DNA of 64,000 nucleotides from an uncultured bacterium (GTDB taxonomy: Bacteria; Patescibacteriota; Saccharimonadia; Saccharimonadales; Saccharimonadaceae): assembly GCA_903900345.1 (NCBI GenBank), contig CAIUMO010000025.1, positions 1 to 64,000 on the forward strand. Direction: 5' to 3'. Shown here piece by piece: positions 18,927 through 19,960 of this stretch; the stretch's first letter is position 1; the number at the start of each line of letters is the position of its first letter. The notes under the pieces were generated by a model. It was not told the origin of the DNA and did not search any database. It saw nothing but the letters and a program-made list of their open reading frames with translations. The position numbers and the translations under genes were made by a program.

Positions 18927-19376
18927 ATGATTGAGCAACGATCCAGCAAAAGACAACGAGAGCTATTAAGCTTTGTTGATAGCTTCATTCAGAGGCATGG
19001 TTATGGTCCTAGTTATCGCGAAATTATGCGCGCTTTGGGCTATAAGTCAGTCTCAACAGTAGCTGTTCATATTGATGGCTTGTTGACGAAAGGTTATTTG
19101 CGCAAACGTGATCGATCAGCCAGATCACTGGAAGTCGTTACGACGCATTTGGACGAACCTTCAGCTAAAAAAGCTCCAACGCCAGCTCAAGAAAAATGGT
19201 TAATCAACGCTGTTACAAATAAGTTCAATGATTTTGACAATTCACACAGCGCCGAAACTTTAGATGAATTGTATGTTTTAGTTGGTGCGCTGAAAGTGTT
19301 AGGTTTGGACGGCGCCCATATCGCAATGAAAACTCGCCTGGTTGATTATCTTAAAACTCAGAACAAAATTGGATAG
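18927..19376 (+). CDS. LexA-type winged-helix DNA-binding protein without S24 peptidase domain
   Basis: RQRELLSFVDSFIQRHGYGPSYREIMRALGYKSVSTVAVHIDGLLTKGYLRKRDRSARSLEV like LexA N-domain; C-term lacks Ser-Lys peptidase motifs. Confidence 0.8.
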   Translation: MIEQRSSKRQRELLSFVDSFIQRHGYGPSYREIMRALGYKSVSTVAVHIDGLLTKGYLRKRDRSARSLEVVTTHLDEPSAKKAPTPAQEKWLINAVTNKFNDFDNSHSAETLDELYVLVGALKVLGLDGAHIAMKTRLVDYLKTQNKIG

Positions 19377-19406
19377 TTGACTAATTCAAAGAGTAAAGTA
19401 TATAAT
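19377..19406 (+). promoter_or_regulatory. Sigma-70-like promoter for tRNA-Asn: TTGACT-N18-TATAAT
   Basis: -35 at 19377-19382, -10 at 19401-19406; expected start near 19413. Confidence 0.7.
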
Positions 19407-19414
19407 AACACTTG

Positions 19415-19532
19415 TATTCCGACGTAGCTGTCACCATGTCGAATGACGTGGCAATGGTAAAATTGGTTTCATATATTCCGACGTAGCTGTTCCCATGCTG
19501 TATAGCGTGGCAATGGTAAAGTACGGTACACC
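19415..19532 (+). repeat. Two 59-bp tandem units resembling the tRNA-Asn 5' end with a 22-nt hairpin insert
   Basis: 19415-19473 and 19474-19532 both start TATTCCGACGTAGCT, as does the tRNA region from 19533. Confidence 0.85.
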
Positions 19533-19535
19533 TAT

Positions 19536-19610
19536 TCCGACGTAGCTCAATGGTGGAGCAAGAAGCTGTTAACTTCGAGGTTACTGGTTCGAGCCCAGTC
19601 GTCGGAGCCA
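19536..19610 (+). tRNA. tRNA-Asn (anticodon GTT), CCA encoded
   Basis: TCCGACG/CGTCGGA acceptor stem, CTGTTAA anticodon loop, GGTTCGAGCC T-arm, GCCA end. Confidence 0.93.
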
Positions 19611-19650
19611 AATAAAGAAGACCCGCAAAGGTCTTTTTTATTTGGCTCCG
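19603..19650 (+). terminator. Long inverted repeat/terminator overlapping the tRNA-Asn 3' end
   Basis: CGGAGCCAAATAAAGAAGACC-CGCAAA-GGTCTTTTTTATTTGGCTCCG, 21-bp stem with one G-U. Confidence 0.8.
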
Positions 19651-19960
19651 CGCCCTGCGGTCTCGAACCAGTAACTCGCCAGCTTGCCTGGCGATAGTTA
19701 CTGGTTAGGTGTAGCGAGTAAAATAAAAGAAAGCGCGTAGCATTTTCTTTTGTGAACGAGCGGAAAAGGCGAAGCCGCTGGCCAGTCGTCCAGACCTTAT
19801 GGTCTGTTTTTCGCGGATATTATAGAAGCGGCGAATTAGCTGTCTGGATATTTGTGTGTTTTTGTTAAGTAATAAATTATATTTGTAGAATACATTTAAA
19901 GTTTTTCTTTGTCGTTTGCGCTATTATTAGATTAAGTTAATTTTAGTTGAAAGTATTAAT

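Follow-up and report, generated by a model that had tools for sequence, protein, structure and literature searches.

What are the two tRNA-like pieces that precede the tRNA-Asn(GTT) gene of the window, by which we mean the whole 64,000-nucleotide stretch analysed here, and how did they come to lie in the leader of this gene? The window is on contig C25 of its genome assembly (G000; 788 kb, 29 contigs), and this tRNA-Asn is the only one found among the surveyed tRNAs of that genome. The pieces occupy 19415-19473 and 19474-19532, between a conserved promoter and the tRNA (Table 1), and share one layout, namely TATTCCGACGTAGCT, a 22-nt insert, CAATGGT and a 15-nt spacer; within each, 22 nt copied from the tRNA 5' end are broken by a hairpin, precisely between positions t12 and t13. 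TATTCCGACGTAGCT is present three times, at 59-bp spacing. The original prediction spoke of two exact 59-bp units: both are indeed 59 bp long, but their sequences are 76% identical. Its description of a tRNA-like start, a 22-nt insert and then CAATGGT was borne out in both units, and the two hairpins it drew are real: CCATGTC-GAAT-GACGTGG and CCATGCT-GTAT-AGCGTGG each form 7 bp, with both partners of the two innermost pairs changed from one unit to the other. Each unit of the window carries one hairpin, not a double hairpin. Since the RNA folding of the two units by themselves departs only mildly from expectation (z about -1.9), the evidence for them is comparative. An ORF with a LexA-type DNA-binding domain (PF01726), at 18927-19376, ends directly 5' of the tRNA-Asn promoter.

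Table 1. Features of the tRNA-Asn locus, with positions in the window, and loci that carry the unrelated element B discussed at the end of the text
Feature	Position or locus	Strand	Remark
Promoter TTGACT-N18-TATAAT, native to the tRNA-Asn gene	19377..19406	+	11/12 match
Unit 1, tRNA-Asn copy t-2..t12	19415..19429	+	exact match
Unit 1, inserted hairpin GTCA-CCATGTC-GAAT-GACGTGG	19430..19451	+	exactly between t12 and t13
Unit 1, copy of t13..t19 (CAATGGT)	19452..19458	+	
Unit 1, spacer	19459..19473	+	weak pairing with copied acceptor strand, p=0.33
Unit 2, tRNA-Asn copy t-2..t12	19474..19488	+	
Unit 2, inserted hairpin GTTC-CCATGCT-GTAT-AGCGTGG	19489..19510	+	
Unit 2, copy of t13..t19	19511..19517	+	
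Unit 2, spacer	19518..19532	+	pairing with acceptor copy p=0.13
Third, uninterrupted copy of the duplicated 22 bp, within the intact tRNA gene	19533..19554	+	
Intact tRNA-Asn(GTT)	19536..19610	+	
Element B upstream of tRNAs	L115, L133, L109, L139, L134, L124		
Element B downstream of tRNAs	L116, L121, L130, L136, L141, L145		

Comparison with related genomes indicated where the added DNA lies. Most close relatives have the promoter and the tRNA-Asn without units; the same promoter is joined directly to the tRNA-Asn in G016 and, according to the match coordinates, in G007, G008, G011 and G034. The predicted promoter (11/12 match) was thereby confirmed, the same stretch lying directly 5' of the tRNA in relatives without units, and the idea of a leader stands insofar as the units lie downstream of this native promoter and should be transcribed. 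Here the native upstream sequence runs straight into the first unit, so that the added DNA lies to its right. Units at Asn were found in 2 of the 28 genomes of the genus, G000 and G002, a presence/absence polymorphism that is consistent with mobility. One unit occupies this site in G002; its tRNA-derived parts are identical, and its hairpin (TCATATC-GAAT-GATATGG) has changed while keeping its pairing. A chance origin of the Asn units was rejected, given this covarying unit in a relative and the recurrence of the arrangement at many tRNAs. An assembly artefact at the tandem repeat is unlikely in view of the differences between the two units and the independent occurrence of the arrangement in G002. 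Nor do the two units represent a recent tandem duplication, since the 18-nt hairpin of unit 1 is identical to one at tRNA-Arg(CCT) elsewhere in G000 and unlike that of unit 2.

The hairpins belong to a family with the consensus CCATRTC-loop-GAYATGG. Within the scope of our survey of G000 (tRNA neighbourhoods and pattern matches), all mismatch-free matches to this consensus lie 5' of tRNAs, at Asn, Arg(CCT), Arg(TCG) and Lys(CTT), and in relatives hairpin-split copies stand next to intact tRNAs for Ala(CGC), Arg(TCT), Arg(TCG), Gln(CTG) and Ile(GAT), in one case (L175) downstream of the intact gene. Where a tRNA stretch is duplicated, the hairpin lies within one of the copies, and a nuclease gene or a short spacer separates it from the adjoining intact copy. 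The insertion points are t7|8, t12|13, t20-22, the anticodon arm and the T-loop. Checked base by base, 17 of 20 insertions neither removed nor added tRNA bases; the duplicated stretch of these 20 spans 15-88 bp, and duplications usually start 0-5 nt upstream of t1. The hairpins of relatives are paired in opposite orientation, with loops (ATTC/GAAT or ATCC/GGAT) that in most cases could pair with each other, and among 15 double hairpins compiled, 14 have 7/7 pairs in both hairpins and the remaining one has 6/7 in one of them. Across 23 distinct hairpins, 99.4% of 161 pair cells pair, a somewhat flattering figure given that the set was partly found by a pattern that expects pairing; double changes occur in six of the seven pairs, a result that none of 500 shuffles reached. 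Chance repeats were ruled out as the source of the tRNA copies, as tRNA upstream regions fall into two classes, those with 5' tRNA copies of 11-25 nt and a background of at most 10 nt. Two further arrangements were seen in passing: a hairpin nested inside a hairpin at L080, and a 5' copy of tRNA-Leu(CAG) in G000 (L119) that carries a different, 14-nt insert (CCTATGAATAATCG).

At several of these tRNAs the space between the hairpins and the intact gene holds an ORF of about 86-97 codons: Arg(TCT) in G016 and G007, Arg(TCG) in G002 and Lys(CTT) in G000. Its product is a GIY-YIG domain (Pfam PF01541, E=1.4e-12), a single UPF0213-like domain whose nearest solved chains are 1zg2 and 1ywl, and residues Y3, Y15, G17, R25, H29 and E61 are invariant in both GIY-YIG alignments. 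GIY-YIG genes stand beside tRNA-Lys in G000 and G002 and beside tRNA-Arg in G002, G007, G016 and G020. One GIY-YIG protein of G000, 86 aa long, is encoded at G000:C19:9397-9654. Recognisable split copies are absent at Lys in G000 and at Arg(GCG) in G002 and G016, and at L186 the tRNA that follows the ORF is unlike the tRNA copy before it. Among the copies at different tRNAs, dN/dS is 0.05-0.14, a sign of purifying selection; the gene is thus maintained as a working protein while residing at different tRNAs. The tRNA-Arg(TCG) has hairpins with the ORF in G002 and hairpins without it in G000, a comparison that links the ORF-bearing and ORF-less forms.

The association extends beyond the genus. 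A database scan for the GIY-YIG protein, with one genome per species and a narrow profile (a profile of all tRNA-linked proteins was too diverse), gave 27 loci, mostly from Patescibacteria/CPR or unassigned bacteria by title, including five in the window's genus and one from Neomarinimicrobiota. Among the 14 homologs that reach 50% identity or more, 13 adjoin a tRNA (8 of the 9 from outside the genus), as against 4 of the 13 less similar ones. Copies of Gln, Arg and Ala tRNAs split by hairpins occur in the members titled Berkelbacteria, Vogelbacteria and Parcubacteria, and the hairpins in the Berkelbacteria and Parcubacteria members are very like those of the window's genus; the Berkelbacteria locus L188, for instance, reads CCATGTCATTCGACATGG CCATATCGGATGATATGG and belongs to the same hairpin family. 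Outside the genus the split falls in the D-arm region at L188 (Gln), in the anticodon arm at L194 (Ala) and L185 (Arg), and in the T loop at L182 (Tyr), L184 (Gln) and L181 (Ser). This co-occurrence of hairpin and nuclease in different host tRNAs across candidate phyla is the strongest argument for a mobile element. A search of the phage collection gave no match. In six more distant CPR loci (L195, L196, L198, L199, L201, L202), GIY-YIG ORFs lie between palindrome arms (e.g. CCCGTTAGAG ... CTCTAACGGG), and the combination of palindrome and GIY-YIG gene suggests a wider kind of element.

We therefore come to the reading that we consider likely, namely that the units in the window are ORF-less copies of a tRNA-targeting mobile element made of hairpins and a GIY-YIG gene, and that they arose by hairpin insertion with duplication of the tRNA flank, twice at Asn. 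The original prediction had offered a remnant of repeated insertion at the tRNA as an alternative, and it is this alternative that gained support: the units are patchy, the same hairpins occur at many tRNAs, insertion into the duplicated tRNA piece is precise, and full forms carry a nuclease gene. Hairpins nested in another hairpin and in element B (see below) also count in favour of a mobile element. A full-length element would consist of one or two palindromic hairpins and the gene for a single-domain GIY-YIG nuclease, and would insert in the arms and loops of tRNA genes. The nuclease may open the DNA of the tRNA gene at or near a hairpin-forming arm; the hairpin DNA would be joined at the cut, and repair would duplicate the flank, so that the essential tRNA survives. 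Where a tRNA has a single gene, an insertion that spares no intact copy would kill the host, so that only duplicating insertions would persist. ORF-less forms may have been moved in trans or may have decayed. At tRNA-Asn the insertion would have happened two times and left a pair of units in the 5' leader of the transcript. Several points stand against this reading. The spacers of ORF-less units have no obvious sequence in common with each other or with the ORF-bearing middle, and these units are therefore not plain internal deletions. We know of no process that yields both the duplication and a hairpin within one copy. The loci named above without a recognisable split copy, and the mismatch of tRNAs at L186, also count against it. 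Finally, the unit at Arg(CCT) is 38/39 identical between G000 and G020, while identity over the full alignment of the locus is about 78% and the spacer differs, a conservation that exceeds expectation for dead DNA.

The last of these points leads to the explanation that an ORF-less unit, whatever its origin, is kept as an RNA structure of the pre-tRNA that tunes RNase P processing or tRNA dosage, either as a decoy of the tRNA 5' half, in competition for the 3' acceptor strand, or as a hairpin closing on itself and protecting the real tRNA. The promoter places the units within the transcript, the Asn hairpin covaries between units and between species, and the Arg(CCT) unit is preserved across diverged genomes as described above. 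In the predicted lowest-energy fold of leader and tRNA, the acceptor copy of unit 1 pairs with the 3' acceptor strand of the tRNA, and the spacers of ORF-less units tend to pair with the copied acceptor strand (p=0.001 for Asn in G002, p=0.002 for Arg(CCT), p=2.5e-4 for seven ORF-less units combined), a tendency absent in the ORF-bearing forms. However, the test set is small and consists of the data that prompted the idea, the two spacers in the window pair only weakly (Table 1), and the units are very patchy, occurring at Asn in the two genomes named. Moreover, hairpins also split copies downstream of tRNAs and T-loop copies, where a leader role would make no sense. We accordingly regard a leader function as the general explanation as rather unlikely, and we give no better prospects to the narrower claim that some ORF-less units are under selection as RNA.

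Two other origins would dispense with a dedicated GIY-YIG element. A Y1 (RAYT/IS200-type) transposase could have moved the hairpins, which would then be REP-like palindromes, and the GIY-YIG gene would be just a passenger. A Y1 transposase gene is present in all five genomes tested (G000:C10:12069-12296; homologs L141-L144), and pairs of small palindromes in opposite orientation are typical of REPs (PMC3733652). Yet the flanks of the four Y1 loci examined contain no hairpin of the tRNA-linked family, the GTAG/CGTC tag of most REPs is absent at the t7|8, t20-22, anticodon-arm and T-loop insertions, and it is the GIY-YIG gene, not the Y1 gene, that sits at hairpin-bearing tRNAs, which makes this origin quite improbable. 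Replication slippage could instead have duplicated tRNA pieces in tandem, with hairpins forming in the spare copy, or arriving there, at a later time. It would fit with insertions being tolerated only where a spare tRNA copy exists, and with other structured inserts (element B, see below) likewise lying in spare copies. Slippage predicts native-like sequence just 5' of the intact copy, whereas the observed sequence does not resemble the native upstream region, and one hairpin family is found again and again, precisely placed, in different genomes and candidate phyla, together with a nuclease under purifying selection; we hold this origin to be highly improbable.

Hairpin elements and GIY-YIG selfish genes are already known separately. 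The double-hairpin elements (DHE) of fungal mitochondrial DNA are described in PMC4618339, which cites Paquin et al. 2000, as two adjacent stem-loops that are considered mobile and lie in intergenic regions and near tRNAs. The tRNA-linked elements likewise form two adjacent stem-loops with patchy presence, in sequences too short and variable for homology to be judged; unlike the fungal DHE, they are bacterial, lie precisely inside duplicated tRNA pieces and are linked to a GIY-YIG gene. With GIY-YIG homing endonuclease genes they share the catalytic domain and the habit of a selfish gene residing in an essential conserved gene, and the location of a homing gene within its target has its counterpart in the tRNAs beside the closer homologs. 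They differ in having the UPF0213-like domain alone, in lacking an intron or intein, in having hairpins at the insertion point, and in that the flank is duplicated rather than an intron spliced out. REP/RAYT palindromes, small, often in opposite pairs and thought to be miniature transposons (PMC3733652), differ from the present hairpins, which have no GTAG/CGTC tag at most sites and are tied to tRNAs and the GIY-YIG gene. Insertions in CPR rRNA genes (PMC11270868) are mostly group-I-intron-like with LAGLIDADG enzymes, Saccharibacteria rRNA genes being reported as an exception; the likeness is that a stable RNA gene of the same clade is invaded with the aid of a homing-type nuclease, and the difference is that our elements lie in tRNA genes, involve GIY-YIG and have no intron match. 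Genomic islands and prophages that sit at tRNA 3' ends likewise duplicate part of the tRNA and leave it whole, but the present elements measure about 40-350 bp, lack an integrase, carry the hairpin inside the displaced copy, and use many tRNAs and several insertion points.

In 15 loci no Rfam intron reached the gathering threshold, and the window stretch gave none at E<=5; a search for known tRNA-leader and T-box regulatory RNA families returned the tRNA itself and chance-level matches. In the sources cited above, none of DHE, GIY-YIG homing genes, REPs and CPR rRNA insertions is described as combining palindromes with a GIY-YIG gene and restored copies of a tRNA, and a search of the openly accessible journal literature found no description of such a coupling. 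That these elements form a new class of mobile DNA, widespread in CPR, in which a tiny GIY-YIG nuclease inserts hairpins with precision into the hairpin-forming arms of tRNA genes, part of the tRNA being copied so that a working gene remains to the host, and of which some ORF-less copies were co-opted as leaders, is a proposal that we judge to fall just short of probable. Minimal selfish DNA seems to populate the tRNA genes of very reduced genomes densely, and hairpin-split duplicated tRNA pieces show how an element may live in an essential single-copy gene without an intron; structure-guided insertion, if true, would be a different way of choosing a target site. On a practical level, ARAGORN called a hairpin-split tRNA-Tyr copy as a gene, and split copies may thus mislead tRNA annotation.

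An unrelated structured element, which we term B, shares the habit of lying in tRNA copies. It is about 100 nt long (GTGAG ... GCAAGGCCGGA ... GAGGCGGGGT ... GTGAC), shows both-side changes in 17 of 35 consensus pairs and has no Rfam match; in the genus it lies in the D-arm part if the tRNA copy is a 5' one and in the T loop if it is a 3' one (Table 1). At tRNA-Gln(CTG), B in G000 (L115) and a double hairpin in G020 (L169) lie at nearly the same place of the tRNA copy, in otherwise similar leaders, and at L173:640-690 a consensus hairpin lies inside the apical stem of a B element. Copies of tRNA 3' parts, inverted or direct, follow the terminator at 19630-19675 and in many other tRNA downstream regions; a copy of at least 13 nt lies within 500 nt downstream in 25 of 116 tRNAs surveyed, and at L121 the tRNA 3' part, the terminator and the inverted 3' part form one long palindrome.
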